Below are positions 24,717-45,490 of a stretch of DNA of 64,000 nt, one piece after another (within the stretch, counting starts at the first letter, position 1; each line of letters starts with the position of its first letter). The position numbers and the translations under genes are program-made. Origin of the DNA: Siccirubricoccus phaeus (GTDB lineage Bacteria; Pseudomonadota; Alphaproteobacteria; Acetobacterales; Acetobacteraceae); the NCBI RefSeq assembly GCF_008360935.1, contig NZ_SRXO01000004.1, positions 310,001 through 374,000 of the forward strand, given 5' to 3'. The notes beneath the pieces are model-generated. The model had not been told where the DNA came from and ran no database searches. It worked only from the letters and a program-made list of their open reading frames with translations.

Positions 24717-26045
24717 CTACTGCGCGGCCGCGCCGACGCCCCGGTGGCTGCCGGGCCGTGGCAGGCCGAGATTCTCCCGCAGGGTCGTGCCCTCATAGGC
24801 GGTGCGGTACAGGCCGCGCTGCTGCAGGATGGGGATGACCTGGTCGACGAAGGCGTCGAACTGCCCGGGGAACCATGGCGGCAGCACGACGAAGCCATCC
24901 GCCGCGCCGGTCAGGAACCACTCCTCCATGATGTCGGCGATGCGCGTCGGCGAGCCGTAGATCACCCAATGGCCGCGCGCCGCCGCCACCAGATTGTACA
25001 GGTCGCGCAGCGTCATGTTGTCCCGCCGCGCGGCGGACATCAGGGTCTGCGCGAAGGCATGCGACATGTCGGTGGGCGGCAGCTCCGGCACCGGGCCGTC
25101 CAGCGGATAGCCGGACAGATCATGGCCGATGCGGGCGGAGACAAGCGCCAGCGCATTCTCCGCATCCAGGAAGCCCTGCAGTTGGTCCAGCAGCGCCTTC
25201 GCCGCCGCATCGGATTCGGCGATGAAGGGCATGACGCCGGGCAGCAGATGGCAATGCTCCGGCTGGCGGCCGAAGCGGGGCAGCAGCGCCTTGAAGCCGG
25301 CATAGTGCCGCCTGGCCTCCACCAGATCCTGCACCACGGTGAACACCACATCGGCGGTGCGCGCCGCGAAATTCTGCCCGGCCGCCGAGGCGCCGGCCTG
25401 GATGATGACCGGATGCCCCGAGGGGCAGCGGGACATGTTCAGCGGGCCCTTCACCTGGAAATACCGCCCGACATGGTCCAGCGTCCGGACCTTGGCGGGA
25501 TCGACGAAGAGGCCGGTTTCCCGGTTGCGCGGCAGCGCATCGTCCTCCCAGCAATCCCACAGCCCCTTGACGACATCGACGAATTCCTCGGCGATCTCGT
25601 AGCGGTGGTCATGTTCCGGATGCCCGGCCCGGCTGAAATTCGCCGCCGCGGCGGCGGCGGAGCTGGTGACTGCATTCCAGGCCGCCCGGCCCTGGCTGAG
25701 ATGATCCAGCGAGGCGAAGGCGCGCGCCGTGGTGAAGGGATCCGAATAGGTGGTGGACATGGTGCCGCCGAGGCCGAGATGCCGCGTCGTCACTGCCAGC
25801 GCGGCGAGCAGCGTCGTCGGCTCCAGCCGCGCCACGAAGGAGGGGTGGTCGCCCTTGACCTTGGTCGCCAGCCCGTCGGAGACGAAGAGCAGATCGAACA
25901 GCCCGCGCTCCGCGGTCGCGGCGATGTTCTGCATGACGGCGAGGCTCTCGCCATTGTCGCTGGCCCCCGGAAGCCGCCAGCCGGCGATATGATTGCCGGT
26001 GCCCTGCACGAACACTGCGAAGCGCATGCAACGCGATCGGGACAT
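24717..26045 (-). CDS. NtaA/SnaA/DszA-family flavin-dependent monooxygenase
   Basis: This is the third monooxygenase of the family (442 residues). AGGAG lies eight bases before ATG 26045. Marks are MRFAVFVQGTGNHIAGWRLP, LLFVSDGLATK, LGLGGTMSTTYSDPFTTAR, LSQGRAAWNAVTSS (the signature has Gln where the paralogues have Gly), PVIIQAGASAAGQNFAA, and the C-terminal LQQRGLYRTAYEGTTLRENLG. The enzyme would oxidise a small N- or S-containing organic compound with reduced flavin. It lies 108 bases after a Bug receptor gene on the same strand and may be the last gene of the leftward operon that starts at 31550. Confidence 0.9.
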   Translation of the reverse strand: MSRSRCMRFAVFVQGTGNHIAGWRLPGASDNGESLAVMQNIAATAERGLFDLLFVSDGLATKVKGDHPSFVARLEPTTLLAALAVTTRHLGLGGTMSTTYSDPFTTARAFASLDHLSQGRAAWNAVTSSAAAAAANFSRAGHPEHDHRYEIAEEFVDVVKGLWDCWEDDALPRNRETGLFVDPAKVRTLDHVGRYFQVKGPLNMSRCPSGHPVIIQAGASAAGQNFAARTADVVFTVVQDLVEARRHYAGFKALLPRFGRQPEHCHLLPGVMPFIAESDAAAKALLDQLQGFLDAENALALVSARIGHDLSGYPLDGPVPELPPTDMSHAFAQTLMSAARRDNMTLRDLYNLVAAARGHWVIYGSPTRIADIMEEWFLTGAADGFVVLPPWFPGQFDAFVDQVIPILQQRGLYRTAYEGTTLRENLGLPRPGSHRGVGAAAQ

Positions 26046-26153: not shown

Positions 26154-27128
26154 CTAATCCTGCTGCGCTTTCGCCTGCCGCGCCAGCTCCGCCCAGCGCG
26201 GCACCTCATCCCGGACCAGACGGGTGAAGGCGGGGGTATCCATGGCCACATATTGCGTGCTGGTGCGCGCGAAGCGGGAAGCGACGACGGGATCGCCGCG
26301 CCGGCGGGCCAGCGCCTCCGCCGCCCGCTGCACCACCTCCGCCGGCAGTCCCGCGGGGCCGAACAGCCCGTTCCAGGTTTCCAGCTCGAAGCCGGGCAGG
26401 CCGGCCTCGGCAATGGTCGGCACCTCCGGCAGCTCCGGCAGGCGATGGCGGCCGCTGGCGCCGATGAGCAGAACGTCCGGGCTGCGGTTGAAGGCGACGA
26501 CATCCGCGGGGTTGGAGAACAGCACCGGGATGCGTCCCGCCACCACCTCCGCCATGGCGGCCGGCCCGCCGCGGAAGGGGATATGCGTGCCGCCAGTGCC
26601 GGCGCGCGAGAGGAACAGCTCCGTGGCCAGATGCTGCACGCTGCCGACGCCGCCGGAGGCATAGGGCATGCCGCCATCCTCCGCCTTGAAGCGGGCGATC
26701 AGCTCCGGGATGGTCTTCACGCTAAGGCTGCGGCTGACCGCCATGATCAGCGGGTTGGTGGCGACCAGGCTGATCGGCGTCAGATCCGCGACCGTGTCCA
26801 CCGGCGGGTGGTTCCGCATCACCGCCGGGGCGATGGCGACATTGGCGACCGAGGCGAACAGCAGGGTGTAGCCATCCGGCGCGGCACGCGCGGCCGCTTC
26901 CATGGCGATGTACCCGCCGGCGCCGCCGCGATTGTCGACGATGACCTGCACGCCATAGGCTTCGCTGAGGATCTCCGCCGTCAGCCGCGCCAGCGTGTCC
27001 GTATTGCCGCCGGGCGGGTAGGTGACGATCAGTCGCACCGGGCGCTCCGGCCAGGCGGCGAAGCCCGGCGCAGATTGCAGCAGCAGCGCCAGGGCTGCCC
27101 AGGCAGCCAGCAGCAAGGAACGCATCAT
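26154..27128 (-). CDS. orphan Bug-family TTT solute receptor
   Basis: This periplasmic receptor of about 324 residues has a Sec-type signal (MMRSLLLAAWAALALLLQS) cleaved near GFAA. ATG at 27128 begins this signal; the frame extends to an ATG at 27143. The carboxylate loop is IVTYPPGGNTDTLAR, followed by ARAAPDGYTLLFA. No TctAB pair is in this operon. The pair at 35052-37001, under the same predicted operator, may serve it. It lies 37 bases after the LLM-class oxidoreductase gene in the leftward unit that contains the first opine-dehydrogenase/M24/enolase triad. Confidence 0.87.
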   Translation of the reverse strand: MMRSLLLAAWAALALLLQSAPGFAAWPERPVRLIVTYPPGGNTDTLARLTAEILSEAYGVQVIVDNRGGAGGYIAMEAAARAAPDGYTLLFASVANVAIAPAVMRNHPPVDTVADLTPISLVATNPLIMAVSRSLSVKTIPELIARFKAEDGGMPYASGGVGSVQHLATELFLSRAGTGGTHIPFRGGPAAMAEVVAGRIPVLFSNPADVVAFNRSPDVLLIGASGRHRLPELPEVPTIAEAGLPGFELETWNGLFGPAGLPAEVVQRAAEALARRRGDPVVASRFARTSTQYVAMDTPAFTRLVRDEVPRWAELARQAKAQQD

Positions 27129-27165
27129 CACCCCCGCCTTCATCCCCGATGTCGCACCGGGCCGC

Positions 27166-28158
27166 TCACCCGGCGAACTCGCGGAGCATAGGCAAGATCA
27201 GGGCCAGACCGGCCGCGCCGCCAATCGCGGAAATCACCGGCTCCTCGAGGCCGGCCTCGATATAGGCCTGCAGCCGGCGGCTGCATTCCGCCGGCGTCCC
27301 GGCCACCGCGAAGGCCTCGACGGCCTCGTCCGGAATCAGCGCGGTCGCCGCCGCCAGGTCGCGGCGCGCCACGGCGGCGATGACCGCCTCCTGATCCACC
27401 GGAATGCCGGAGCGCCGGACATTCTCGGCGAGGAATTTGTTGCGCATGACGAAGGCCAGCTTCGGCCGCACCGCATCCATGGCGGCCCGGCTGCTCTCCT
27501 GCACGCTGCAGAAAAGGTAGCCGGCGCGGCGGAAACCCGCCGCATCGCGCCCGGCGCGCGTCGCGGCCTCGGCGCAGATCGCCAGGGAGTCGCGGACGGA
27601 ATCGAGCGACAGCGCGGCCGAGAGCACCACGCCGTCGGCGATGCGCCCGGTCAGCCGCAGCATGTCCGGGCCGGTGGCGGCGATGTAGATCGGCGGCTTC
27701 TGCCGCGGCGTGAAGGCCATGCGGGCGCCGGCCAGCCGGACATGCGCGCCCTCCATATGCACCGCCTCGCCCGTCCAGAGTCGGCGCAGCGCCTCGACAT
27801 ATTCCCGCATCAGCGGGATGGGCTTCTCCAGCGCCTTGCCGGATTCGGCGAGGAAGAGCGGGTTGCCGACGCCGAGCGCAATCGCTGCCCGTCCGGGCGC
27901 CAGCTCGTCCAGCGTCGCCATTTCCATGGCCACCGGCATCGGGTGCCAGAGATAGGGGCTGATGGCCGTCGGCACGAGCATCGGCCCCGGCGCCGCCATG
28001 GCGAAGGCCATGCAGCTGCCGCAGGCGCTGCGATAGCCCAAATGCTCCGCCATCCACAGGCTCTGCGCGCCGGCGGCGACTGCCTGCTGCGCCATGGCGA
28101 TGGCTTCCTGGGTGCTGACGAAGCCGTCGAAAGCGAGGCCGATCCGCGCTGCCATCAT
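27166..28158 (-). CDS. LLM-class flavin- or F420-dependent oxidoreductase
   Basis: This is a luciferase-like TIM-barrel oxidoreductase (about 330 residues) of a branch different from the NtaA-type genes nearby. Features are RIGLAFDGFVSTQEAI, SLWMAEHLGYRSACGSC, a LDELAPGRAAIALGVGNP segment that forms the usual flavin-contact strand, PPIYIAATGPDMLRLTGRIADGVVLS, and a C-terminal GTPAECSRRLQAYIEAG. The last is typical of F420/FMN-dependent members, which often act as reductases or dehydrogenases. ATG at 28158 follows AGGGA, ten bases from the enolase stop. Its role in the pathway is not known; cofactor choice between FMN and F420 cannot be read from sequence. Confidence 0.85.
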   Translation of the reverse strand: MMAARIGLAFDGFVSTQEAIAMAQQAVAAGAQSLWMAEHLGYRSACGSCMAFAMAAPGPMLVPTAISPYLWHPMPVAMEMATLDELAPGRAAIALGVGNPLFLAESGKALEKPIPLMREYVEALRRLWTGEAVHMEGAHVRLAGARMAFTPRQKPPIYIAATGPDMLRLTGRIADGVVLSAALSLDSVRDSLAICAEAATRAGRDAAGFRRAGYLFCSVQESSRAAMDAVRPKLAFVMRNKFLAENVRRSGIPVDQEAVIAAVARRDLAAATALIPDEAVEAFAVAGTPAECSRRLQAYIEAGLEEPVISAIGGAAGLALILPMLREFAG

Positions 28159-28168
28159 CGTTCCCTGT

Positions 28169-29326
28169 TCATGCCACGCTGTAGCGTTCGAGCTTCGCCT
28201 CATTCACCTCGATGCCGAGGCCGGGGCCGTCCGGCACCAGCATATGGCCGTCGCGATAGACGAAGGGCTCCTCGATGATGTCGTCGAGGTATTTGTGCCC
28301 GGCGATCCGGGTGCGCACGACCTCGGCGGTGGAGGTAACGGGGATGGTGCCGGGCAGGGTGATGATCGCGCTCGAGGCGGCGAGGTGCAGGTTGGCGGCA
28401 TTGCCGATGCCCATCTCGCCCGAGCCGTTGATGTCGCAGGCGAGGCCCGCGGCTTCCGCCACCGCCAGCAGCTTCTTCGACTTCAGCAGCCCGCCCGGCT
28501 TGGTGTAGTAGACCGAGAGCATCTCCGCCGCCTGGTGCTGGACGATCCGCAGCACGTCATGCGCGGTCCAGGCGCTTTCATCCGCCATGATCGGCACCTC
28601 GGTGTTCTGCGCCACCCGCGCCATGTTCTCCAGCCCCTCGCAGGGCTGTTCCATGTACCAGATGTTCTCGCCCTGCATGACCCGCGTGACCTGCAGGGCC
28701 TCCTTCCAGCTCCGGTAGCCCTGATTGGCATCGACCCTGAGCTTCACCGTGGGGCCGAGCTCCGCGCGCAGTCGGCGGACCAGCTCGATGTCGCGGGCCG
28801 CGTCGATGCCGACCTTCACCTTCAGCGTGGTGATGCCCTCATCCACCACCTGCTTCGCTTCGGCGATGGCGGTGTCGATCTCCATCAGGCCCAGGCTGTG
28901 CGCCAGCGCCACCTCCCGCCGGTACAGCCCGCCGAGCAATTGATAGACCGGGATGCCGTAAAGCTTGCCCACCGCATCATGCAGCGCCACATCGACGGCT
29001 GCCTTGGCGTAAGGATAGCCGCGGACGAATCTGTCCATCTTGGCGTGCAGCACTTCGATCTGCCGGGGATCCTCGCCGATCAGCAGCGGGGCCAGCAATT
29101 CCTCGATGACGAGCTTCGTGGTCTGCGGCGCCTCGCCATAGCGGCTGCCGAATTCGCCGCCCCAATCCTTCAGCACCTGGGCCTCCCCCCAGCCCACCGT
29201 GCCATCCTCCAGCACCAGCTTCAGGACGGTGTAGCCATACCCCACCGGCGCGTAATTGCCCGCCCAGGTATGGGGCCGGCGCATCGGCAGGGCGATGCGC
29301 CAGCTCCGCAGCGAAGCGATCTTCAT
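28169..29326 (-). CDS. enolase-superfamily enzyme, muconate-cycloisomerase subgroup (triad A)
   Basis: This 385-residue enzyme abstracts a proton alpha to a carboxylate, as in epimerases, cycloisomerases and dehydratases. The active-site set of the MLE subgroup is complete: Lys169 and Lys171 (K-x-K in TLKVKVG), metal ligands Asp199 (DANQGY), Glu226 (EQP) and Asp249 (ADES), and Lys276 (YTKPGGL) on the opposite face. The N-terminal capping domain has GWGEAQVLKDWGGEFG. Lysines on both faces suit 1,1-proton transfer (racemase/epimerase). It overlaps the M24 gene by four bases (ATGA). A paralogue with the same residues is at 38276. Substrate unknown; neighbours suggest an N-substituted amino acid. 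Confidence 0.9.
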   Translation of the reverse strand: MKIASLRSWRIALPMRRPHTWAGNYAPVGYGYTVLKLVLEDGTVGWGEAQVLKDWGGEFGSRYGEAPQTTKLVIEELLAPLLIGEDPRQIEVLHAKMDRFVRGYPYAKAAVDVALHDAVGKLYGIPVYQLLGGLYRREVALAHSLGLMEIDTAIAEAKQVVDEGITTLKVKVGIDAARDIELVRRLRAELGPTVKLRVDANQGYRSWKEALQVTRVMQGENIWYMEQPCEGLENMARVAQNTEVPIMADESAWTAHDVLRIVQHQAAEMLSVYYTKPGGLLKSKKLLAVAEAAGLACDINGSGEMGIGNAANLHLAASSAIITLPGTIPVTSTAEVVRTRIAGHKYLDDIIEEPFVYRDGHMLVPDGPGLGIEVNEAKLERYSVA

Positions 29327-30447
29327 GCGCCGATCTCGATCAACCGGTCGTTCGGGGAGAGCAGGCCGGTGATCGGCTCGAAGCCGGTTTCGGTGATGAG
29401 GTACATATCTTCCACATGGAAGCCCATGCGGCCGGGGATCATGTAGAGTGGCTCCATCGTCATGGTGACGTTGGGCTGCAGCAGGATCTGCCGCGTATCG
29501 GTGATGTAGGGTTCCTCATGGATGGTCTGGCCGATGCCATGGCCAAGGAATTTCAGCGTCGGCTCGATATTCCGCGTGCGGAGGTAGTCCACATAGGCAC
29601 GGTAGAGATCCGGCACGGGCGTGCCCGGCCGCAGCATCGCTTTGCAGAGGTCGCGGGCGCCGATCATCACCTCCCAGATGCGCCGCTGCTCGTCGGTCGG
29701 CTTGCCGACCACCGCGGTGCGGGTGACGTTGGAGCGGTACCCGCCCATATCGCCCAGGATTTCCAGCCGGAGCACGTCGTCGACCTCGATGAGCTTGGCG
29801 GTCGGGCTGCAATTGACGATGCCGCTGCGGATGCCCGATCCGACCTGGCATTTGAGGCCGTCGCAGCCGCCTTCCACCATGCGGCTGGCGACCATCTGGC
29901 TGACGGCCTTCTCCGTCATGCCGGGGCGGATCTCCGCCAGCACCTCGCCGGCGATGCGGTCGGTCAGCTCGCCGACGCGACGGAGAATGGCGATCTCCTC
30001 CGCCGTCTTGACCATGCGCGTGGTGAAGTAGAGGTCGCGGCAATGTTCGAAGCGCGCCTTCGGCAGCCTCTCGCGCAGCCGGATGAAGTCCTGTGCCGGC
30101 ATGTAGTCCAGCTCGATGCCGATGCACCCCTCGGCGGCGCCGGCCTCCGTCAGGATATCCGCCAGCAGGTCGGCCGGATCCTCGGTGAACTGGTTGTAGG
30201 GGCGGATGTCGCTGAAGCGGGAACGCTGCCGCGCCAGGTTCTCCTCGACATTGACCACCACCTGCACTGCTTTGCTGTCGCCGGCCAGCACGGAGATGGT
30301 CCGGCGAAAGCGGTTGCTGAGCTGGCTCGGCACCTGGAAGCCGGCGGTGTAGGTGACGTTGTCCGGCGAGAAGGCGACCAGCGCGTCGAAGCCGGCGGCG
30401 CCAGCGGCGCGCCGCAGCTTGGTGAAAACCTCGTGCTCGGCAGCCAT
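29323..30447 (-). CDS. M24-family creatinase-like protein with altered metal ligands (triad A)
   Basis: This protein has the pita-bread fold of aminopeptidase P/prolidase/creatinase (about 374 residues). The N-terminal domain includes FSPDNVTYTAGFQVPSQ. In metallopeptidases of the family two Asp, one His and two Glu bind metals. Here the first Asp position is Glu229 (RLEILG) and the second, eleven residues on, is Asn240 (YRSNVTRT), while His303 (GHGIG), Glu332 (MEPLY) and Glu346 (HVEDMY) remain. Creatinase is a known metal-free member with the same kind of losses, so a hydrolase acting on a C-N bond is more likely than a peptidase. ATG at 30447 overlaps the opine-dehydrogenase stop (TGATG) and follows GGAGG. 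A paralogue is at 37035. Confidence 0.87.
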   Translation of the reverse strand: MAAEHEVFTKLRRAAGAAGFDALVAFSPDNVTYTAGFQVPSQLSNRFRRTISVLAGDSKAVQVVVNVEENLARQRSRFSDIRPYNQFTEDPADLLADILTEAGAAEGCIGIELDYMPAQDFIRLRERLPKARFEHCRDLYFTTRMVKTAEEIAILRRVGELTDRIAGEVLAEIRPGMTEKAVSQMVASRMVEGGCDGLKCQVGSGIRSGIVNCSPTAKLIEVDDVLRLEILGDMGGYRSNVTRTAVVGKPTDEQRRIWEVMIGARDLCKAMLRPGTPVPDLYRAYVDYLRTRNIEPTLKFLGHGIGQTIHEEPYITDTRQILLQPNVTMTMEPLYMIPGRMGFHVEDMYLITETGFEPITGLLSPNDRLIEIGA

Positions 30448-31550
30448 CACGCCCCCTCCTCGACCAAATGCCGCAGCGCCTGTGGCGTCATGCCGGCAAT
30501 GCCCAATTTCTCCAGGGTCAGCCCGGCGCTGAGAAAATCGACGTCCAGCGAGAGGCTGGCGAGATGGATCAGCGCATCCATGGTCGGCGTCTTCACGCCG
30601 GCCACCTGGCCCAGCGCCGCCATCGGCACCAGGCCGGTGCCGACATCCTCATGGATGTAGCGATCGTCCAAGGAGGCAGGCGATTTGATGGTGGCGTTCG
30701 GCGCGCTCTCACGGCAGGCGCGGGCGATGTCGCCGCTGGCATAGGCCTCCGCCGTCGTCGCGCCGAATTCGTAGAAGGTCTGGAGGAAGGAGATCGCCGG
30801 GACCTGCAGCGCCGCGGCCACCGCCATGCGCTCCGCGTCAATCGCTGCCGTCACCCGTGCCACGGCGGGCGTGATGCCTTCCCGGTAGAACAGGAAATCG
30901 CCGCCCGTCGCCTCGATCCAGCCGGCATTCATCAACATCCCCGGCGGGTGGAACACCGCGTTGACGTTGCCGAGCGCGGATTCCAGCGCCGAGCTGGCCG
31001 CCTGGATGTCCGGGTAGAGCGGCTGCACCAAAGCGAAGAGCTCCGCGGTGCGGGTGGCCGGCAGGGCGGCGAAGCGCAGCTTCCTTGCATAGCTGTAGAT
31101 GCCGACCTTCGCCGGGCCTTCCATGCGTGAGATGTAGGTCAGGGAGACAGTCTCGCAGAGCGCCAGCTTGCCCCGATAGCCGGCGAGGCGGAGCTCGTTC
31201 AGGAAATGCAGCCCGCCGCCGGTATGGCCGGGGTTCAGCATGACCGGCACGCTGCCGTCCAGCAGCGGCGCCAGCGCCCGGGCGTAGTGGCTATGCGCCA
31301 CGGAGGGCACGACGAGCATGATGAGGTCGGCACCGCTGATCGCTTCGGCCAGGTCGGTGGTCATCGCCTCCGGCGTGACGAAGCCTGCCTGGACGCCATG
31401 CGCCTCGATGCCGCCGCGCGCCCGCAGCGGCGCCAGCCGCGCCGTGCTGCGGGCATGGAGCCGGACGCGGAAGCCGCGCAGCATCAGATCGGCCGCCGCG
31501 GCGCAGCCGCCATGGCCGGCGCCGAGCACGGCAACGCAGCGCACCGGCAT
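30447..31550 (-). CDS. opine dehydrogenase-family NAD(P)-dependent oxidoreductase (triad A)
   Basis: This enzyme belongs to the octopine/nopaline/N-(1-carboxyethyl)norvaline dehydrogenase family, which reversibly forms or splits N-carboxyalkyl amino acids into an amino acid and a 2-oxo acid. The Rossmann motif VAVLGAGHGGCAAAADL opens the protein. The helical C-terminal domain has VNAVFHPPGMLMNAG, carrying the conserved catalytic His, and DDRYIHEDVGTGLVP, carrying the conserved Arg and Asp. ATG at 31550 starts the Rossmann strand; the longer frame runs into the regulatory region. It is the first gene of the leftward unit and is divergent from its paralogue at 31918. The direction (catabolic or biosynthetic) is inferred from the transport and GntR context. 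Confidence 0.87.
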   Translation of the reverse strand: MPVRCVAVLGAGHGGCAAAADLMLRGFRVRLHARSTARLAPLRARGGIEAHGVQAGFVTPEAMTTDLAEAISGADLIMLVVPSVAHSHYARALAPLLDGSVPVMLNPGHTGGGLHFLNELRLAGYRGKLALCETVSLTYISRMEGPAKVGIYSYARKLRFAALPATRTAELFALVQPLYPDIQAASSALESALGNVNAVFHPPGMLMNAGWIEATGGDFLFYREGITPAVARVTAAIDAERMAVAAALQVPAISFLQTFYEFGATTAEAYASGDIARACRESAPNATIKSPASLDDRYIHEDVGTGLVPMAALGQVAGVKTPTMDALIHLASLSLDVDFLSAGLTLEKLGIAGMTPQALRHLVEEGA

Positions 31551-31637
31551 CACCCGCGCCCCTGCGAAATTTGTCGCGCCGCGGGGGCGATGGGAGTCGT
31601 CCTTACAGGCCGCATGCGCTCGTACCCTCGCCCTTGC

Positions 31638-31647
31638 AGTGATCACA
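31638..31647. promoter_or_regulatory. candidate GntR operator, site 1
   Basis: AGTGATCACA matches the palindrome TGTGATCACA at nine of ten positions. It is 88 bases upstream of the leftward opine-dehydrogenase gene (start 31550) in the 367-base divergent region 31551-31917, which otherwise has no gene. Its partner site is at 31859. Confidence 0.55.
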
Positions 31648-31858
31648 GTGCGCGCAAGCTTCGGGCCCGGATGCCATCGGTGTCAACCACCGAATATTGC
31701 CGCCGTCCTGCCCCGCCACAGCGAGGAAAGCCAGGGAGTTCTGCCTGAACTGCGCACTTTTCGCCCGGCTTCATGCACCAAGAACAGGCAGATCAGGCGC
31801 CGCGAGCATTAAAGTCGGATCGGCCAGCCTTCTGATGTCTTGCCGATCTGCCATCCAC

Positions 31859-31868
31859 TGTGATCACA
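31859..31868. promoter_or_regulatory. candidate GntR operator, site 2
   Basis: This is a perfect TGTGATCACA palindrome, 50 bases before the TTG start of the rightward opine-dehydrogenase gene. The same ten bases occur at 40962 and 41787, next to the GntR gene. Confidence 0.65.
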
Positions 31869-31917
31869 TCAAACCGCCCTCCCGGCTCTGCCGGGCCAGC
31901 GGCGCAGGAGACAGCCC

Positions 31918-33033: not shown

Positions 33034-33073
33034 CGATACGGGCCCCGCCATCATCGACCGAAGGAGAGACGGC

Positions 33074-34042: not shown

Positions 34043-34074
34043 CCGCTGGCGCAACCCGAGGAGAGAGACCCGAC

Positions 34075-35495: not shown

Positions 35496-35498
35496 GCC

Positions 35499-37001: not shown

Positions 37002-37034
37002 CGCGGGGGGAGCGTCCGAGGCGCCCCGCCGCCG

Positions 37035-38171: not shown

Positions 38172-38275
38172 GCTGTCTCCCTCGGAGTGCGATCGCCGCA
38201 GGTGGGTTCACCGGCGGCGTGAACAAGCAAGAAGGCCAGAGCGGGACCGGAAGGCAGGACACGCTCCGGCGGCGG

Positions 38276-39442
38276 TCACTCGCTGACGCGATAGGTCTCG
38301 ATCTTCTTGAGATCCGCCTCGATGCCCATGCCCGGCCCCGTCGGCACCAAGATCGCGCCATCCTCCAGCGTCATCGGCGCGGCGATCAGGTCGTCGCGGT
38401 AATAGATGCCCCCGACCTGCCCGCGCTGCTGCGCCGCCGGCGTGGAGACCGGCACCACGCAGGACAGGGTCACCGCCGGCGCGGCCGCAGCGAGCTGGAT
38501 ATTCGCCAGATTGCCGATGCCCGTCTCGACCGAGCCATTGACGTTGCAGATGATGCCCGCGGCGCGGCAGACCGCGGCCACTTCCATGGCGCGCAGCAGC
38601 CCGCCCGGCTTGGTCGTGTAGATGGAGACGATCTGCGCCGCCCGGTGCTCGATGATCTGCACCACGTCATGCGCGTTCCAGGCGGATTCATCCGCCATCA
38701 CCGGCGTGTCGATGGCGCGCGCCACCTCGGCCAGGCGCTCGATGCCCATGACCGGCTGCTCGGCATAGATCAGGCGCTGCTCCTCCATCTGGCGGATGGT
38801 GCGGATCGCCTCGCCCGGCGTGCGGTAGCCTTCATTGGCATCGACGCAGAGATCCACCTCCGGCCCGACCGCGGCGCGGATCTGCCGCACCATCTCGACA
38901 TCGCGCTTGGGGTCCACGCCGACCTTGATCTTGATGGTGCGGATGCCCTCGGCCGCGACCTGCGCCACTTCCTCGACCGCTTGCGGAATCGGGATCAGGC
39001 CGATGGAATGGGTCACCGGGATGCGGGTGCGGCTCCGCCCGCCGAGCAGCAGGTGCACCGGCACGCCCAGCCAGCGGCCGGTGAGGTCGTAGAAGGCGAA
39101 ATCCACAGCGCCCTTAGCGTAGGGATAGCCCTTGATGACCGCATCCATCCGCGCATGCAGCGTCGCCGCGTCGCCCAGCTCCACCCCCAGCACGGCGGGC
39201 GCCAGATAGCGCTCGATGACCGTGCGGGTGATCAGCGGAGATTCGCCGAAATAGCGGCCGAATTCGCCGCCCCAATCCTTCAGCGCCGGCGCCTCGCCCC
39301 AGCCCACCCGGCCGGCATCGTCGGTCATCTTCACCAGCACGTAGCGGCCGATCGGCTCGGTCAGCCCGGTCCATTTATGCTCGCGCCGCGTCGGGAGCTG
39401 GATGAGGATCGTCTCGATGGTGGTGATGACAGGCACGCGCAA
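38276..39442 (-). CDS. enolase-superfamily enzyme, muconate-cycloisomerase subgroup (triad B)
   Basis: This 388-residue paralogue of the 28169 product has the complete active-site set: Lys171 and Lys173 (TIKIKVG), Asp201 (DANEGY), Glu228 (EQP), Asp251 (ADES) and Lys278 (TTKPGGL). The lid domain contains GWGEAPALKDWGGEFG, nearly the same as in the other copy, so the two enzymes probably act on similar skeletons. ATG at 39442 starts 27 bases after the VOC gene stop. It is cytoplasmic and requires Mg2+. As in triad A, an M24 protein gene follows it, though here the opine-dehydrogenase partner lies in a separate divergent unit. Confidence 0.9.
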   Translation of the reverse strand: MRVPVITTIETILIQLPTRREHKWTGLTEPIGRYVLVKMTDDAGRVGWGEAPALKDWGGEFGRYFGESPLITRTVIERYLAPAVLGVELGDAATLHARMDAVIKGYPYAKGAVDFAFYDLTGRWLGVPVHLLLGGRSRTRIPVTHSIGLIPIPQAVEEVAQVAAEGIRTIKIKVGVDPKRDVEMVRQIRAAVGPEVDLCVDANEGYRTPGEAIRTIRQMEEQRLIYAEQPVMGIERLAEVARAIDTPVMADESAWNAHDVVQIIEHRAAQIVSIYTTKPGGLLRAMEVAAVCRAAGIICNVNGSVETGIGNLANIQLAAAAPAVTLSCVVPVSTPAAQQRGQVGGIYYRDDLIAAPMTLEDGAILVPTGPGMGIEADLKKIETYRVSE

Positions 39443-39469
39443 CTTCCCCGTGGCTGAGACTGGATTGGG

Positions 39470-39841
39470 CTAGGCGGCCAGGCCCGGCTGATACAGCTCG
39501 ACCTTCGTGCCGTCCGGATCCTCGACATAGATCGTCAGCCCATAGGGGCCGTCATGCAGGTCCTGGAAGAACGGCACGCCCGCCGCGCGCAGCGCATCGC
39601 GCAGCCGACGGACATCCGCCACCTCGAAGGCGATGTGGTCGAGCTGGCGATGCCCTGCCTCGCGCCCCGCGATCAGGGCAATGCCCTGGCGGAAGGCGGT
39701 GAAGGGCCGGCCATCCTGCAACGGCTTGGCCGGGCGGATGACGAAGCCCAGGCGGTCCACGTAGAAGGCCGTGGAGCGCGCCATGTCGCTGACCATCAGC
39801 AGCAGATGGCCGAAGCCGACCACCCCGGGCGCCGCGTCCAT
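39470..39841 (-). CDS. VOC-superfamily protein (glyoxalase/extradiol dioxygenase fold)
   Basis: This is a single-module vicinal-oxygen-chelate protein of 123 residues. GFGHLLLMVSDMARSTAFYVDRLGF is the first beta-alpha-beta-beta-beta repeat with a candidate metal His at residue 12. The second repeat has LDHIAFEVADVRRLRDAL with another His, and YVEDPDGTKVELYQ with the terminal Glu ligand. A His-His-Glu set is consistent with a metal-dependent glyoxalase, isomerase or dioxygenase. It starts one base after the tautomerase stop region, so it is translationally linked. The exact reaction is unknown. Confidence 0.83.
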   Translation of the reverse strand: MDAAPGVVGFGHLLLMVSDMARSTAFYVDRLGFVIRPAKPLQDGRPFTAFRQGIALIAGREAGHRQLDHIAFEVADVRRLRDALRAAGVPFFQDLHDGPYGLTIYVEDPDGTKVELYQPGLAA

Positions 39842-39842
39842 C

Positions 39843-40037
39843 TCAGCCTTCCTTCTGGTCGATGCCGAGCACGCCGGCGCGGCCCCAACTGTCCTTCGGC
39901 GTGTCGTGGATCACCACATGCAGGTGGTCCGGCTTGCAGGCGGCGTACTCCACCATGGCGTCGGTGATGGCGCGCACCAGCTTGCGCTTCTGCTCCACCG
40001 TGCGGCCTTCCCACATCTCCACGATCACGAACGGCAT
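39843..40037 (-). CDS. 4-oxalocrotonate tautomerase-family enzyme
   Basis: This 64-residue tautomerase begins Met-Pro, so Pro1 becomes the catalytic base after Met removal. MPFVIVEMWEGRTVEQKRK resembles the classical first strand and helix of the family, and residues 36-45 (PDHLHVVIHD) form the second strand with VVIHDTPKDSWG following. Members interconvert enol and keto forms of 2-oxo acids in aromatic-ring and heteroaromatic-ring breakdown, or dehalogenate or hydrate related acids. It lies between the dipicolinate-synthase-like and VOC genes with gaps of three and one bases, which indicates a shared pathway. Confidence 0.88.
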   Translation of the reverse strand: MPFVIVEMWEGRTVEQKRKLVRAITDAMVEYAACKPDHLHVVIHDTPKDSWGRAGVLGIDQKEG

Positions 40038-40040
40038 GGC

Positions 40041-40934
40041 TCAAGCCCTTCCCCCGTAAAGCGCCTCGATCCGGCGGCGAATGCCGCTCCACTGGCTGCG
40101 GCCGACGGTCACCGGCGCCCGGCTGCCAAGCCCGCGCGCCCAGACGGCCCGCAGGCCGCGCGCTGCCGCCGCCTCCCGGTCGATGCCGCCGGGCGGCGCG
40201 GCCAGATCCACCAGCAGCGCCTGCTGCGGCAGCAGGGCCAGCTCCGCCGCGCCGAGCACGCGCGAGGGAATGGAGGAGATGACGATGTCGGTCCCCGGCA
40301 GGATCTCGGGCAGCGCCGCGAATTCCTGCGGCTCGGCGCCGGCCGCATAGGCTTCGGCGCGCTGCACCGGGTTGCGCGCCACCACCTGCACCCGCGCGCC
40401 GAGCGCGACCAGCGTCCGGCAGGCCAGCCCGCCGATGGTGCCATGCCCCAGCATGGCGATGCGGGCGCGGTGGATGGTGATATCGGTGTTCTCGATGATG
40501 ACGCGCAGCATTCCCTCCACGATGGCGGGGCCGCGCAGCAGCATCAGGTCCTTGTCCCACTCATATTCGTGCAGGGCGAGGCCGAGCGCCGCCGCATGCG
40601 CCTTCAGCCCGGCATCCGCCCAGCCGAGGATGATGTGCCCCGGGCGGCGCATGCCTTCGAGCATGGCGCGGGAGGGAATGATCCGCTCCGCGCATTGCGG
40701 GGCGAAGAGCGCGCCATCCGGCGCGATGCCGGGGATGGGGAAGAGCGCCAGATCCGCCCCCGCCAGCGCCGCCGCCGCGCTGTCGCAGCGTTGCACGCCG
40801 GGGATGCCGGCTTCCGGCCAGGGGAAGCCGAAACCCCGCACCGTGGCGCCCGTTGCCGCGGCGCAGCGGGCGATTTCCTGTTCCCGCCGGTCGCCAGCGA
40901 CGATGGCGACGGTCAATGCGTTCCAGTCCACCAT
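40041..40934 (-). CDS. dipicolinate synthase subunit A (DpaA/SpoVFA)-like NAD(P)-binding protein
   Basis: The protein (297 residues) aligns by eye along its whole length with Bacillus SpoVFA. The N-terminal part has TVAIVAGDRREQEIARC. Then come GPAIVEGMLRVIIENTDITIH, the Rossmann motif IAMLGHGTIGGLACRTLVALG, ISSIPSRVLG, and LVDLAAPPGGID. Dipicolinate synthase makes dipicolinate from a dihydrodipicolinate-type intermediate in spore formers and needs subunit B, which is absent here; no spore genes are present. It may instead act on a related cyclic imino acid in catabolism. The start is ATG at 40934 or the next GTG, close behind GGAGG. It heads a five-gene leftward unit, with a GntR-type operator 28 bases upstream. 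Confidence 0.8.
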   Translation of the reverse strand: MVDWNALTVAIVAGDRREQEIARCAAATGATVRGFGFPWPEAGIPGVQRCDSAAAALAGADLALFPIPGIAPDGALFAPQCAERIIPSRAMLEGMRRPGHIILGWADAGLKAHAAALGLALHEYEWDKDLMLLRGPAIVEGMLRVIIENTDITIHRARIAMLGHGTIGGLACRTLVALGARVQVVARNPVQRAEAYAAGAEPQEFAALPEILPGTDIVISSIPSRVLGAAELALLPQQALLVDLAAPPGGIDREAAAARGLRAVWARGLGSRAPVTVGRSQWSGIRRRIEALYGGRA

Positions 40935-40961
40935 GCCTCCGCACCGCTGGCGGCGCCATGG

Positions 40962-40987
40962 TGTGATCACAGCAAAGGGACTGTCAA
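40962..40987 (-). promoter_or_regulatory. candidate promoter with GntR operator, site 3
   Basis: On the minus strand, TTGACA (40987-40982) is followed after ten bases by the perfect palindrome TGTGATCACA (40971-40962), which would cover the -10 region of the promoter for the dipicolinate-synthase-like operon. The same spacing (nine bases) is found at 41772-41796. The -35 overlaps the last codons of the GntR gene. Confidence 0.6.
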
Positions 40988-41727
40988 GCCTTTGGCAGCC
41001 GGCGGTCGTGCGCCTCCGCCCGGGCCGCGGCGAAATGCGGCGTCACCAGCAGCGCCTCGGCGGTCTTGTTGATGTCCCGCTCGATGGCCTGCCGCGCCGC
41101 CGCCGGGTCGCCATCGCGCAGCGCCTGCAGCAGCTCAACATGGTGGACGCCGTCCCAATGCGCCCCGGCGGTGGAGCTGAAGGCGAGATGCATGAAGGGC
41201 CCCGCCTGCAGCCACAGCCCCTGGATGATCGGCATGAGCACGGTCGAATGCGCCGCCTCGTAGAGGGTGAAGTGGAAGCGCTGGTTCATCGCCAGGCTGC
41301 GCCGCATGTCGCCGCTTTCGAAGGCGCGGCGCGAGGAATGGTGGATCTTCTCGATGGCGCTGATCTGCTTGAGGGTGATGGCGCGGCACGCCGCCTCGGT
41401 GGCCATCCCCTCCAGCGCGCGCCGCACCCCGAGCAGCTCCACCAGCCGGTCGCGCGTCATGCGCGGCACCTGCATGATGCGGTTGGGCAGGATTTCCAGC
41501 GCGCCCTCCACGATGAGACAGCGCACCGCCTGGCGCACCGGCATGGGGCTGACGCCGAGATCGGCGGCGAGGTTGCGCAGCGTCAGCACCTGGCCCGGCA
41601 GGAAGACGCCGCTCATGAAGCGGTCGCGCAGCTCCCGATAGACCTGTTCCTCCACGCTGCCCACCGGCGTTGGCGGGCCGGCGGGGGCTTCCTTCCGCGC
41701 GACCGGCGCGGTCGCGGATCGGGTCAC
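40984..41727 (-). CDS. GntR-family regulator with FCD domain
   Basis: This is a DNA-binding regulator of about 247 residues. The GTG at 41727, five bases after GGAGAG, was chosen as start because the upstream frame crosses the promoter region. The winged helix is at about residues 20-85 (EEQVYRELRDRFMSGVFLPG, then LRNLAADLGVSPMPVRQAVRCL). The C-terminal helical FCD domain follows, with LLGVRRALEGMATEAAC, MNQRFHFTLYEAA and a DGVHHVELLQALRDGD segment containing the conserved His residues that usually bind a metal and a carboxylate ligand. It is divergent from the Mo-hydroxylase genes and upstream of the dipicolinate-synthase-like operon. TGTGATCACA palindromes flank it on both sides, so it is the natural candidate to control the 24717-45490 gene set and itself. 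Confidence 0.9.
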   Translation of the reverse strand: MTRSATAPVARKEAPAGPPTPVGSVEEQVYRELRDRFMSGVFLPGQVLTLRNLAADLGVSPMPVRQAVRCLIVEGALEILPNRIMQVPRMTRDRLVELLGVRRALEGMATEAACRAITLKQISAIEKIHHSSRRAFESGDMRRSLAMNQRFHFTLYEAAHSTVLMPIIQGLWLQAGPFMHLAFSSTAGAHWDGVHHVELLQALRDGDPAAARQAIERDINKTAEALLVTPHFAAARAEAHDRRLPKA

Positions 41728-41771
41728 GCGGTCTCTCCATCGCAGCCGGGCATTGCAGGCAGGATTCCGTG

Positions 41772-41796
41772 TTGACAGGCTCTCACTGTGATCACA
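41772..41796 (+). promoter_or_regulatory. candidate promoter with GntR operator, site 4
   Basis: TTGACA at 41772-41777 is followed after nine bases by the perfect palindrome TGTGATCACA (41787-41796), in front of the rightward Mo-hydroxylase genes and behind the divergent GntR gene. A clear -10 hexamer is not seen. The remaining divergent region 41728-41909 has no other feature. Confidence 0.6.
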
Positions 41797-41909
41797 CTCT
41801 TTCTTCGGTGCCGTGACAAGGCGGCACCTTATCCGGAGGAGCCTGGGCGTGCATCCCGGACATCCACGCGCATCGCGCGGCACCATGCCCGGCCCGGGCC
41901 TCTAGGGGC

Positions 41910-42737
41910 ATGGGGCGCTACTGGCGGCCGCAACATCTGGCCGAGGCGCTGAACATACTGGGCGAGGCCGCGCCGGTGGTGCTGGCCGGCGGCACCTGGC
42001 TGGCGCGGGATGGCGGCCTGCCGGGCCCCGACGCGGCGTTGCTGGACATTTCCGCTGTCGCCGAGTTGCAGGGCATCGCGCAGCAGGATGGCAGATGGCG
42101 GATCGGCGCTGCCACCACCTGGTCAACGCTGCTGCAGGCGAAGGTGCCGCCCTTTCTCGCCGGGCTGCGGCAGGCGGGCGCGATGCTGGGCAGCCCGCAG
42201 ATCCGCCGGCAGGGCACCATCGGCGGCAATCTCCTCGCCCGCTTTCCCGCCGCCGATGGCGTTCCGGCGCTGCTGTGCCTCGACGCCTCGCTGGAATTCG
42301 CCAGCGTCGCGGGCGCACGGCGCGTACCGCTCCAGGCCATGCTGGCCGGCGCGATGCCGCGGCAGGATGAGCTGCTCACCGCCATCCTGCTGCCCGCACC
42401 GGCGGGCGGCCAGCGCAGCGACTTCCTGAAGCACGGCTATCGCCGCGCCATGGCCGTCGCGGTGGCCTCCGCCGCCATCCGGCTGGATATCGCCGGCGGC
42501 ACGGTCCGCGGCGCCCGCATCGCCCTGGGCGGCTGCCTGTCGCTGCCGCAGCGACTGCCGGGGCTGGAGGCCGCGTTGTTCGGCCAGCCGGTACAAGCCC
42601 TGGCCGCCTCGATCGGGCCAGAGGCGCTGACCGGCCTGCCCTTCCTCGAGGACGGCCTGGCGCCCGCCGCCTATCGGCAATCGGCGGCGCTGGTGCTGCT
42701 GCGCCGCCTCCTGGCGCAGGCGGAGCAGGCGGCATGA
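41910..42737 (+). CDS. molybdenum hydroxylase FAD subunit (CoxM/CutM type)
   Basis: This 275-residue FAD-binding subunit of the xanthine dehydrogenase family transfers electrons from the iron-sulfur clusters to an acceptor. The first FAD motif is AAPVVLAGGTWLARDGG (the AGGT-type loop) and the second is QIRRQGTIGGNLLAR (the TIGGN loop), at the expected spacing of about 75 residues. The C-terminal CO-dehydrogenase flavoprotein domain follows, with YRRAMAVAVASAAIRL. It overlaps the next gene by four bases (ATGA), so both are co-translated. It lies under the site-4 operator. Confidence 0.9.
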   Translation: MGRYWRPQHLAEALNILGEAAPVVLAGGTWLARDGGLPGPDAALLDISAVAELQGIAQQDGRWRIGAATTWSTLLQAKVPPFLAGLRQAGAMLGSPQIRRQGTIGGNLLARFPAADGVPALLCLDASLEFASVAGARRVPLQAMLAGAMPRQDELLTAILLPAPAGGQRSDFLKHGYRRAMAVAVASAAIRLDIAGGTVRGARIALGGCLSLPQRLPGLEAALFGQPVQALAASIGPEALTGLPFLEDGLAPAAYRQSAALVLLRRLLAQAEQAA

Positions 42738-45490
42738 CCCCGACGCAATTCATCCTGAACGGCCAGCCCGTGCAGTCGGGCGCCGCGCCGGCGACCCGCC
42801 TCGTCACCGTGCTGCGCGATGAATTCGGCCTCAAGGGCACGAAGCAGGGCTGCGCCGAGGGCGATTGCGGCATCTGCACCGTGCTGGTGGATGGCGCGCC
42901 GCTCTGCGCCTGCCTGGTGCCGCTGGGTCGGGTGGCGGGGACCACGATACGCACGGTGGAAGGGCTGGCGCCGGCAGGCGTCGCATCGCCGCTGCAGGAC
43001 TCCTTCCGCCGGCACGACGCCGCGCAATGCGGCTTCTGCACCGCCGGCATGCTCATGGCCGCCAGCGCGCTGCTGGAGTCCACGCCGCAACCCACCGCCG
43101 AGGACGCCCGCGCCGCGCTGTCCGGCGTGCTCTGCCGCTGCACCGGCTACCAGGCCATCATCGAGGCGGTCGTCAACGCCCATGCCCCGCCTTCCGCCGG
43201 CCCGGCCGGGCCGGTCTTCGGCAGCCGGGCGCCGCGGGTGGACAGCGAACGCAAGGTCAGCGGCGGCGAAGGCTACGGCGCCGATGGCATCCCCGCCGAC
43301 GCCCTCTGGGTCCGCCTGATCCGCTCCCCGCATCACCGCGCTCGGCTGGAGCTCGGCGACCTCGCGCCAATCCTGCGGGCGCATCCGGGGCTGGTGCGTA
43401 TCTTCACCGGGCACGACTTCCCCAACAACGCGCATGGCTACACCCCCAGCAGCTACGACCAGCCGGCGCTGGCGACGGCGTGCGTGCGCCATTTCGGCGA
43501 GCCGGTGCTGGCGCTGGTCGGCCCGCGCGAGGTCATCGCCGCGGTCCCCGAAGCCTCGCTGCCCCTCCGCTACATCCCGGAAGCGCCGGTCTTCGGCGTC
43601 GCCGCGGCGCAGGCCCCTGGCGCGCCGCGCGTACAACAGCACCGCGCCGACAATCTGCTGATCCAGAGCGGCGTGACGAGCGGCGACCCCGACGCCGCCT
43701 TCGCCACCTGCCACGCCATCGCCGAGGGCCAGTTCGAGACCCCCTTCGTCGAGCACGCCTATATGGAGCCCGAGGCCGGCTGGGCGCGGCGGGTCGGCGA
43801 CCGGCTGGAGATCCATGTCACCACCCAAGGCCCCTACCATGTGCAGCGGCTGGTCTCGCACCTCCTGGACCTGCCGCCGGAGCGGGTGCGCGTGCTGCCC
43901 ACCGCGGTAGGCGGCGGCTTCGGCGGCAAATTCGACATGTCGGTGCACCCGGTCATCGCCCTGGCGGCCTGGACGCTGAACCGCCCGGTCGCCTGCGTCT
44001 TCGAACGGCGGGAGAGCATGGCCGCCTCCACCAAGCGGCACCCGGCCAGCATCACCGCCCGGCTGGGCGCGGATGCCGAGGGCCGGCTGGTCGCCGCGGC
44101 GGTCACGACGGAGCTCGACACCGGCGCCTATACCAGCGCCGGCCCCACCGTGGCGATCCGGGTGCCCATCCATGCCGCGGGCCCCTACCTTGTGCCGCAG
44201 CAGCGCAACATGGCGCGGGCCTGGTTCACCAATGTCACGCCGGCCGGCGGCTTCCGCGGCTTCGGCATCCCCCAGGTCGCGATCGCACATGAGGCGCTGA
44301 TGGATGACCTCGCCGCCCGCCTCGGGCTGGACCGCTGGGAGATCCGCCGGCGCAACGCGCTGGCCGTCGGCGATGTCACCTGCACCGGCCAGCGCCTCAC
44401 GCATTCAGCCGGGCTCGGCGCCTGCCTGGATGCGCTGAAGCCGCGCTGGGAGGGCTGGCTGGCCGAATGCGCCGCCTGGAATGCGCAACCGGGGCCGCGG
44501 CGGCGCGGCGTGGGCATCGGCTGCATGTGGTATGGCATCGGCGCGACCTCGCAGGCCAACCCCTCCACCATGCGCCTCGGCCTCGGCCCCGATGGCGCGC
44601 TCACCCTCTACAGCGGGGTGGTGGAGCTGGGCCAGGGCGGCAGCACCGCGATGGTGCAGATCGCCGCCGAGGCGCTCGGCCTGCCCATGGCGGCCATCCG
44701 CCTGGTCATGGGCGACACCGACCGCACGCTGGATGCCGGCAAGACTTCGGCCTCCCGCCAGACCTTCATCTCCGGCCGCGCCACGGCCGAGGCCTGCGCC
44801 GCGCTGCGGCGGCAGCTCTGCCGCCTGACCAATGCGGGGCCGGAGGCGGCCATCGCCTTCGACGGCGCCCGGGTGCGGGTGAGCGAGGCGGGGCGGGAGC
44901 AGGTGCTGGAGCTCGCCGCCCTGCCGCCGCTGCCGGGCGGCGAGGTGCTGGTCGCCGAGGGACATTTCGATCCGCCGGCCGGCATGCTGGACGCGAGCGG
45001 CCAGGGCAGCCCCTACGCCACCTATGCCTTCGGCGCGCAATTGGCGCTGGTGGAGGTGGACCGGGAGCTGGGCAGCGTCCAGGTGCTGAAGATGGCCGCC
45101 GCGCATGATGTCGGCCGCGCCGTCAACCCCGCCATGGTGGAGGGGCAGATCCGCGGCGGCATCGCCCAGGGCCTCGGCTTCGCCCTGCTGGAGGAGTACC
45201 GGCCGGGGGAGACCGACAATCTGCACGACTACCTGCTGCCCACCGCCCTGGACGTGCCGGAGATCGAGTGCCTGCTGATCGAGGATCCGGAGCCGCTCGG
45301 CCCCTTCGGCGCCAAGGGGGTGGGCGAGCCGGCCCTGGTGCCGACCGCCGCCGCCATCCTCGGCGCCATCCGCCACGCCTCTGGCTTCCGGGCGGATCGG
45401 GTGCCGGTGCTGCCGCACCGGCTGCGGTCGGGCCTGGAGCGTGCCGCGCATGTGGCCCGGAACGCGCAGGAGGGAGGTTCAGGAAAATAG
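42734..45490 (+). CDS. molybdenum hydroxylase, fused 2Fe-2S and Mo-binding subunit
   Basis: This 918-residue fusion carries residues 1-165 with two 2Fe-2S clusters (GCAEGDCGIC for the plant-type cluster; CGFCTAG and CRCTGY for the second) joined to a full molybdopterin-cytosine-dinucleotide domain. In most xanthine-dehydrogenase-family enzymes with a separate FAD subunit these are two proteins; Desulfovibrio aldehyde oxidoreductase shows the same fusion but lacks a FAD subunit. Mo-domain marks are VGGGFGGKFD, a GGFRGFGIPQ loop, ELGQGG and the catalytic Glu in GAKGVGEPA near residue 864. Such enzymes hydroxylate aldehydes or the carbon next to a ring nitrogen. The operon context suggests an N-heterocyclic or related substrate. 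No MCD-loading chaperone gene is adjacent. Confidence 0.9.
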   Translation: MTPTQFILNGQPVQSGAAPATRLVTVLRDEFGLKGTKQGCAEGDCGICTVLVDGAPLCACLVPLGRVAGTTIRTVEGLAPAGVASPLQDSFRRHDAAQCGFCTAGMLMAASALLESTPQPTAEDARAALSGVLCRCTGYQAIIEAVVNAHAPPSAGPAGPVFGSRAPRVDSERKVSGGEGYGADGIPADALWVRLIRSPHHRARLELGDLAPILRAHPGLVRIFTGHDFPNNAHGYTPSSYDQPALATACVRHFGEPVLALVGPREVIAAVPEASLPLRYIPEAPVFGVAAAQAPGAPRVQQHRADNLLIQSGVTSGDPDAAFATCHAIAEGQFETPFVEHAYMEPEAGWARRVGDRLEIHVTTQGPYHVQRLVSHLLDLPPERVRVLPTAVGGGFGGKFDMSVHPVIALAAWTLNRPVACVFERRESMAASTKRHPASITARLGADAEGRLVAAAVTTELDTGAYTSAGPTVAIRVPIHAAGPYLVPQQRNMARAWFTNVTPAGGFRGFGIPQVAIAHEALMDDLAARLGLDRWEIRRRNALAVGDVTCTGQRLTHSAGLGACLDALKPRWEGWLAECAAWNAQPGPRRRGVGIGCMWYGIGATSQANPSTMRLGLGPDGALTLYSGVVELGQGGSTAMVQIAAEALGLPMAAIRLVMGDTDRTLDAGKTSASRQTFISGRATAEACAALRRQLCRLTNAGPEAAIAFDGARVRVSEAGREQVLELAALPPLPGGEVLVAEGHFDPPAGMLDASGQGSPYATYAFGAQLALVEVDRELGSVQVLKMAAAHDVGRAVNPAMVEGQIRGGIAQGLGFALLEEYRPGETDNLHDYLLPTALDVPEIECLLIEDPEPLGPFGAKGVGEPALVPTAAAILGAIRHASGFRADRVPVLPHRLRSGLERAAHVARNAQEGGSGK

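Follow-up and report, generated by a model that had tools for sequence, protein, structure and literature searches.

In the 64,000-nucleotide stretch of Siccirubricoccus phaeus DNA analysed here (the window; contig NZ_SRXO01000004.1, positions 310,001 to 374,000), a block of 18 genes is a conserved regulon built of known protein families in a combination for which we found no published match. It contains two opine-dehydrogenase-family genes (ODH1, ODH2), two creatinase-like M24 genes (M24_1, M24_2) and two MLE-type enolase genes (ENO1, ENO2), together with uptake genes and several oxidoreductases. The explanation that we consider somewhat probable on the sequence evidence is that a single GntR/FCD regulator, acting at TGTGATCACA, controls the block as a catabolic regulon that is linked to the cofactor F420 and directed at C–N bonds. 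The F420 link is a new point over an earlier sequence-only reading of this DNA.

The contig is 398 kb long in a genome of 6.55 Mb, and the window has a G+C content of 71%. The block falls into four predicted transcription units: ODH1–M24_1–ENO1–LLM_mer, with gaps of −4, −4 and −35 (the last with the long LLM_mer start), followed by Bug1; ODH2–Bug2–Bug3–TctB–TctA; DpaA-like–tautomerase–VOC–ENO2–M24_2; and gntR divergent from coxM–MoH. Pfam and NCBIfam confirmed the families that the sequence-only reading had named (both copies of each paralogue pair, the Tct/Bug, tautomerase, VOC, DpaA-like and molybdenum (Mo) hydroxylase genes, and GntR); the Pfam scan covered 15 of the 18 block genes, the tautomerase was identified by NCBIfam only, and Bug2 and TctB by neither. 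Operators were found at or within the 5' ends of the longest open reading frames of ODH1, the DpaA-like gene and gntR, and the starts of these three genes were therefore moved.

26154–27143, minus strand: Bug1, Bug/TctC solute-binding protein (Pfam TctC, 172 bits)
27166–28158, minus strand: LLM_mer, Mer-like, apparently F420-type oxidoreductase, nearest to Mer in sequence and fold; a neighbour of ODH1 at all loci examined
28169–29326, minus strand: ENO1, MLE-type enolase-superfamily protein (MR_MLE; K-x-K, D-E-D and opposite Lys kept)
29323–30450, minus strand: M24_1, creatinase/prolidase fold (M24 and Creatinase_N; E,N,H,E,E at metal-ligand positions)
30447–31553, minus strand: ODH1, opine-dehydrogenase family (PF02317, 147 bits; start at 31553 inferred)
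31638–31647, no strand given: operator-like AGTGATCACA, one mismatch, before ODH1 (site search)
31859–31868, no strand given: putative operator TGTGATCACA before ODH2 (site search)
31918–33033, plus strand: ODH2, second opine-dehydrogenase-family gene (PF02317, 133 bits)
33074–34042, plus strand: Bug2 solute-binding protein (59% identity to Bug3)
34075–35037, plus strand: Bug3 solute-binding protein (Pfam TctC, 167 bits)
35052–35495, plus strand: TctB-like small membrane subunit, between Bug3 and TctA (68–70% in collinear loci)
35499–37001, plus strand: TctA transporter subunit (Pfam TctA, 492 bits; 89% in collinear loci)
37035–38171, minus strand: M24_2, creatinase/prolidase fold (M24 and Creatinase_N; E,G,H,E,K at metal-ligand positions)
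38276–39442, minus strand: ENO2, MLE-type enolase-superfamily protein (MR_MLE; catalytic set kept)
39470–39841, minus strand: VOC-fold protein (Pfam)
39843–40037, minus strand: 4-oxalocrotonate-tautomerase-like protein, begins Met-Pro (NCBIfam)
40041–40934, minus strand: DpaA-like dehydrogenase (DpaA_N, 65 bits; PDB 2rir, E 2e-30; start at ~40934 inferred)
40962–40971, no strand given: putative operator TGTGATCACA before the DpaA-like unit (site search)
40984–41727, minus strand: GntR/FCD regulator (FCD 86 bits, GntR 52 bits; start at ~41727 inferred)
41787–41796, no strand given: putative operator TGTGATCACA between gntR and the coxM-like gene (site search)
41910–42737, plus strand: CoxM-like flavin adenine dinucleotide (FAD) subunit of the Mo hydroxylase (Pfam)
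42734–45490, plus strand: MoH, fused [2Fe-2S]-Mo hydroxylase (Pfam; PDB aldehyde oxidoreductase 1dgj, 1e-103)

Palindromic sites precede all four predicted transcription units. The whole genome has three exact copies of TGTGATCACA, at window positions 31859, 40962 and 41787. All of them stand before units of the block, and the reversed control occurs once. At no more than one mismatch the window holds four sites versus 0.62 expected from shuffles, and none of 100 shuffles reached four. Four sites lie at corresponding places in a genome of another genus of the same family (G017). Three are present in each of L045 and L046, whose fetched stretches are both cut inside gntR, and two lie between gntR and M24_2 in L051. 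An extra exact copy follows LLM_mer in L045 (L045:14530). Counted genome-wide, exact copies number five in G017, six in G100, four in G101, three in G104, two in G109, one in G001 and none in G002 or G103; the reversed control occurs once in G104 and not in the other seven. These observations support the single GntR regulon that the sequence-only reading had proposed, with TGTGATCACA as the putative operator of this GntR/FCD regulator, and we infer that this GntR binds the TGTGATCACA sites.

Extra sites in sister genomes lie beside further genes. In G017 (L090) one stands next to a Rieske oxygenase gene (L090:4106–5374) with an ATP-binding cassette (ABC) permease and a TonB receptor. In G100 one is found with a ring-hydroxylating oxygenase of the Rieske type (L092:5985–7148), a flavin reductase and a hydroxyacid dehydrogenase, and another beside a Bug gene (L091). 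A gene equal in length to the L090 Rieske gene occurs in L093 of G101. The Rieske-type oxygenases at L090 and L092 are candidates for the first pathway steps.

A PF02317 gene was found in 19 of the 100 genomes surveyed (the window genome and 99 relatives). Both stretches of G017 were fetched, as were 18 of the 20 PF02317 matches outside G000 and G017; G016:C277 and G037 were left out. Among the stretches fetched in this survey, G017 was the sole genome with the block, collinear gene for gene from MoH to LLM_mer (27166–45490) at 57–92% identity. Two metagenome-assembled genomes (MAGs), L045 and L046, judged by identical contig positions to be of the genus of G017, keep the order of the block between gntR and LLM_mer, as far as the fetched stretches reach. 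The Bug gene at the Bug1 position in G017 and L046 matches Bug2 best (49%) and is therefore not a Bug1 orthologue. The block is patchy, because no PF02317 gene was found in two same-genus genomes of the survey. A scan of named contigs gave at least 15 loci, 13 of them with an ODH1- or ODH2-type gene and partners; L057 and L058 are remote. Parts of the block occur in other orders in L047–L051 and L056, and the loci L052–L055 and L059 have the order ODH1–ODH2–LLM with M24_2 nearby. The latter are called marine-type here, a label taken from record names (FRAM, TMED) and likeness to them and not a statement of habitat. L059 comes from a MAG labelled Flavobacteriales and closely resembles the alphaproteobacterial loci, so this MAG is probably mislabelled or misbinned. 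In L056, from a Xanthobacteraceae MAG, a Rieske oxygenase gene (LigXa_C; L056:530–1993) lies near ENO1–ODH2. Relatives of ODH1 were found in at least 4 of 385 genomes of the class, at least 4 of 395 of the order and at least 1 of 398 of the phylum (the window's own); the samples overlap and no more than five candidates were scored per genome, so that these counts are lower bounds.

Around ODH1 the partners are not equally constant. LLM_mer is present at 15 of 15 ODH1 loci (window, L025/L026, L045–L055, L059 and L069; 9.3 kb away in L050) versus none of 18 loci with other members of the opine dehydrogenase family, several of these loci being short contigs. Within 10 kb, M24 genes were present at 13 of 15 versus 1 of 18 loci and enolase genes at 6 of 15 versus 1 of 18. 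The sequence-only reading had taken the opine dehydrogenase, M24 and enolase triad as the building unit, present in two sets, and had called for a check of its co-occurrence in other genomes. Both sets are kept in collinear order in G017, L045 and L046 as far as the stretches reach, and elsewhere, in more distant genomes, only parts of them are found. The triad is not the tightest unit: the constant partner of ODH1 is LLM_mer.

To follow the individual genes we used 14 bearer genomes (G000, G017, G100–G110 and G369; the L048 genome was left out), assigning gene types by identity, ENO2 surroundings and the opine dehydrogenase tree. Because bearers were picked by a match to ODH1 or ODH2, ODH1 is present in all 14 by construction, and because most are drafts, absences are weak. 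ODH2 was seen in 12 of 14, with none in G102 or G104. M24_1-type genes occur in seven (G000, G017, G100, G101, G103, G104 and G109) and ENO1-type genes in the identical seven, so the triads are modular; the joint absence from the other seven suggests that M24_1 and ENO1 form an accessory branch. The two sets may serve two stereoisomers or two related substrates, as the sequence-only reading had suggested. M24_2-type genes occur in 13 of 14 (not G109) and ENO2-type genes in 11 of 14 (not G104, G109 or G110). This difference in distribution, together with the separation of ENO2–MoH from ODH1 in five marine-type genomes, would be accounted for if the block comprised two separate pathways under a common regulator, one with ODH1, M24_1, ENO1 and LLM_mer and the other with the DpaA-like protein, tautomerase, VOC protein, ENO2, M24_2 and MoH. 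However, M24_2 is found no more than 10 kb from ODH1 whether or not a locus has the first of these modules, and all four units of the window carry the same operator, so we regard a division into two pathways as doubtful.

The assignment of F420 starts from LLM_mer, which looks like a Mer-like F420-type enzyme and not a flavin monooxygenase. Its closest PDB match is the F420-dependent methylene-tetrahydromethanopterin reductase (Mer; 3e-37). The eight best structural matches of its AlphaFold2 model (predicted local distance difference test, pLDDT, 90) are all F420-dependent Mer, at template modelling (TM) scores of 0.88–0.91, versus 0.67–0.76 for flavin monooxygenases among the best 50 rows. 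Unlike Mer, the gene is found here in Alphaproteobacteria beside opine dehydrogenases. The second line of evidence comes from F420 biosynthesis genes. With queries taken from L054, we found that in six of six marine-type loci (L052 reads in fragments) ODH1 has cofC, cofD, cofE, cofGH and an fno-type gene as its immediate, divergently oriented neighbours. Across genomes, cofE was present in 12 of the 13 bearers searched, and also in G369 (L069), versus 13 of 58 other relatives. In G104 (Afifellaceae), TGTGATCACA lies ~130 bases before cofE–cofD–cofC–cofGH (L097:5061–5198), overlapping the stop of the upstream gene.

Several observations weigh against a regulon tied to F420. LLM_mer scores below the NCBIfam cut-offs for Mer equivalogs (161.1 bits against 276, and 150.2 against 348.7). 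The 15 ODH1 loci are non-independent, three being from one genus and six closely alike, and the 58 relatives are an unmatched control for marine-type bearers. No cofE was found in G101, and G001 and G002 have cofE without an opine dehydrogenase. In the window genome cofE, cofD and cofC stand together (L074), unlinked from the block and without an exact operator; cofGH and fno gave no match in this 19.9-kb cof stretch, the only part of the genome searched for them. The cof genes of G017 and G100 have no operator either, and as the reversed control also occurs once in G104, the site there may be a chance one. As for the regulator, no exact operator was found in the marine-type loci or in G103, and the two copies in G109 are on contigs other than that of the locus, so control by this regulator is lineage-limited. 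Some of these points, namely the scores below the Mer cut-offs, the unlinked cof genes, and the occurrence of cofE in 13 of the 58 other relatives and in genomes of the same genus that lack the locus, are what one would expect of an ordinary catabolic island linked to flavin mononucleotide (FMN), in which LLM_mer is a flavin enzyme and F420 genes are merely common in these lineages. The uniform fold matches to Mer, the adjacency of cof genes to ODH1 in all six marine-type loci and the operator site ahead of the G104 cof operon all speak against such an island, and we think it unlikely.

The two opine dehydrogenases are the only PF02317 matches in the genome (cut-off 30 bits). The nearest solved relative of ODH1 is N-(1-D-carboxyethyl)-L-norvaline dehydrogenase (CENDH, 1bg6; E 7e-61), to which it aligns nearly end to end. 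It shares with CENDH and octopine dehydrogenases the His of the HPP motif, an active-site residue of opine dehydrogenases, and this His was aligned in 44 of 44 rows. The paralogues of the block have diverged far, as the sequence-only reading had held, since the identities are 43% between ODH1 and ODH2, 35% between M24_1 and M24_2 and 48% between ENO1 and ENO2. In a midpoint-rooted tree with long branches flagged and the fork joining the clades open, ODH1 (15 rows; support 100/99) and ODH2 (12 rows; support 97/92) form separate clades; L037 and L041 were left out, and no match between L041 and the opine dehydrogenases of the window was obtained. Each clade holds both Acetobacteraceae and marine-type members, so ODH1 and ODH2 probably diverged before these lineages. 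After strand beta-2, ODH1 and ODH2 carry HARS and YGRS, and marine-type ODH2 carries YSQD. HARS and YGRS suggest the use of nicotinamide adenine dinucleotide phosphate, NADP(H). Cofactor use in ODH1 may differ from that in CENDH, because acidic residues take the place of HARS in 1bg6. To our knowledge, no comparable operon context of CENDH is known. Opine catabolism of the Ti-plasmid type uses the flavin opine oxidases OoxAB/NoxAB; no such family was found among the 15 block genes scanned with Pfam.

We infer F420 use, every reaction and the substrate of the pathway as follows. The Tct/Bug proteins would import a nitrogen-containing carboxylate, which the fused Mo hydroxylase would oxidise, as might, in sister genomes, the Rieske oxygenases by the same operator. 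The M24 proteins would hydrolyse a C–N bond without metal, in the manner of creatinase or ectoine hydrolase, and the enolases would shift an alpha-proton, by racemisation or cyclo-isomerisation. ODH1 and ODH2 would turn a secondary amine, by oxidation, into an imine whose breakdown yields an amino acid and a 2-oxo acid. Hydride transfer between F420 and a C=N or N-CH2 carbon would be the task of the Mer-like enzyme, and in marine-type loci the Fno-type protein would link F420 to NADP. A further-reaching proposal, that amine- or opine-like carboxylates are handled here by an F420-dependent route not described before, in which paired opine dehydrogenases and the Mer-like enzyme act on the same C–N chemistry alongside two metal-free M24 families, is one we hold only tentatively. 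A biosynthetic regulon, in which the opine dehydrogenases condense a building block imported by Tct/Bug into an opine-like metallophore or osmolyte, would agree with the reductive action of well-known opine dehydrogenases, the apparently NADP-type residues after beta-2 in ODH1 and the TonB receptor by one operator in G017, but is quite improbable. Breakdown is indicated by the genes of the block for uptake, the Mo hydroxylase, the tautomerase and M24 hydrolases, and by the Rieske oxygenases that adjoin operator copies in sister genomes, and the Pfam scan, which covered 15 of the 18 block genes, found no nicotianamine-synthase-like or efflux family.

Within the catabolic interpretation, the M24 proteins deserve attention for their metal sites. 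Creatinase works without metal. Compared with a prolidase alignment and across orthologues, the ligand positions D,D,H,E,E read E,N,H,E,E in all eight M24_1 orthologues and E,G,H,E,K in all 13 of M24_2 (counted without the non-orthologous rows L027 and L084). M24_2 has thus lost three of five ligands, and M24_1 keeps H,E,E with the two Asp changed to E and N. These changes fit metal-free hydrolases but fall short of proof; in M24_1 the E and N can still bind metal, a further point on the negative side. M24_2 matches creatinase 1chm at E 9e-20 and 6twk at 2e-12, and prolidases higher by sequence. In Foldseek its model (pLDDT 79; residues 297–322 below 50) matched EutD and creatinase, with which it has the fold in common, at TM 0.75–0.78, and prolidases and related peptidases mostly at 0.65–0.76, a range that overlaps the former. 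Assignments of the M24 genes as ectoine hydrolase, dimethylsulfoniopropionate lyase or peptidase equivalogs were rejected, as all scores were under the NCBIfam cut-offs, far so for the ectoine hydrolase DoeA/EutD (68.5 and 87.3 of 613 bits). The accessible part of PMC4108388 does not settle whether creatinase is metal-free.

In the enolases, KxK, the metal ligands D-E-D and the opposite Lys are kept in 17 of 18 rows, counted without ENO1 of L025, which falls on two separate stretches; the one row that departs, L044, is related at 31% identity. Both enolases score under the muconate cycloisomerase cut-off (TIGR02534; 241.8 and 235.8 of 334.95 bits), and the DpaA-like protein under those for dipicolinate synthase subunit A in NCBIfam (170.4 of 319.65 and 180.3 of 261 bits). 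We fetched the surroundings of ENO2 in seven genomes outside Acetobacteraceae. In five marine-type genomes (L079–L083; L080 in fragments), ENO2 is divergent from a MoH relative of 51–57% identity and a CoxM subunit, so the Mo hydroxylase belongs to the gene set. In G102 a 32% MoH-type gene lies by ENO2, and in G103 there is none in the fetched stretch. The genes after ENO2 in L082 are of the extradiol-type VOC kind and a lactonase-like metallo-beta-lactamase-fold (MBL) gene, with short-chain dehydrogenase/reductase (SDR) genes beyond. A Mo-enzyme large subunit by M24_2 in L072, from a marine-type genome (L072:12182–14524), was not accepted as a MoH orthologue, as it passes the cut-off for 4-hydroxybenzoyl-CoA reductase alpha (1132 vs 994.55 bits); similar neighbours of M24_2 were seen in L068 and L070.

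Next to the block, 19084–26045 looks like a separate catabolic cluster, with three NtaA-type luciferase-family genes (19084, 23351 and 24717) around a polar amino-acid ABC importer. The gene at 24717 is a member of the NtaA/DmoA family of monooxygenases (nitrilotriacetate/ethylenediaminetetraacetate type), passing the subfamily cut-off at 532 vs 279.7 bits, but lies outside the conserved block. It and the ABC and LLM genes at 19084–24673 were rejected as block members, being absent at the corresponding place in G017 (LLM0, LLM_NtaA and the ABC genes), L045 and L046. Of the luciferase-family genes in this region, the one at 27166 appears to be Mer-like and of the F420 type, and those at 23351 and 24717 are of the NtaA type and not part of the block.

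Our literature search, in which one broad query was only partly surveyed, turned up no description of this gene combination or pathway, in agreement with the earlier remark that the route could not be matched to a described pathway; homarine catabolism as a lead went nowhere. The accessible part of a report on SAR202 (PMC6946804) describes expansions of luciferase-like (flavin/F420) and enolase-superfamily paralogues, the same superfamilies as in the block, which are proposed to act on recalcitrant dissolved organic matter. There the paralogues are expanded families and 'opine' and 'octopine' are absent from the main text, whereas here a defined regulon is seen. F420 is the subject of a review (PMC8498797).

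F420 is an unusual cofactor whose use in this bacterial group is poorly understood. The defined regulon seems to tie it to a catabolic gene set, and the operator is a handle for finding the inducer. If this is true, F420 gains a definite, co-regulated catabolic role in Alphaproteobacteria, and the regulon would give an operon context to the luciferase-like and enolase paralogues that, in the accessible part of the SAR202 report (PMC6946804), are proposed to act against resistant dissolved organic matter.

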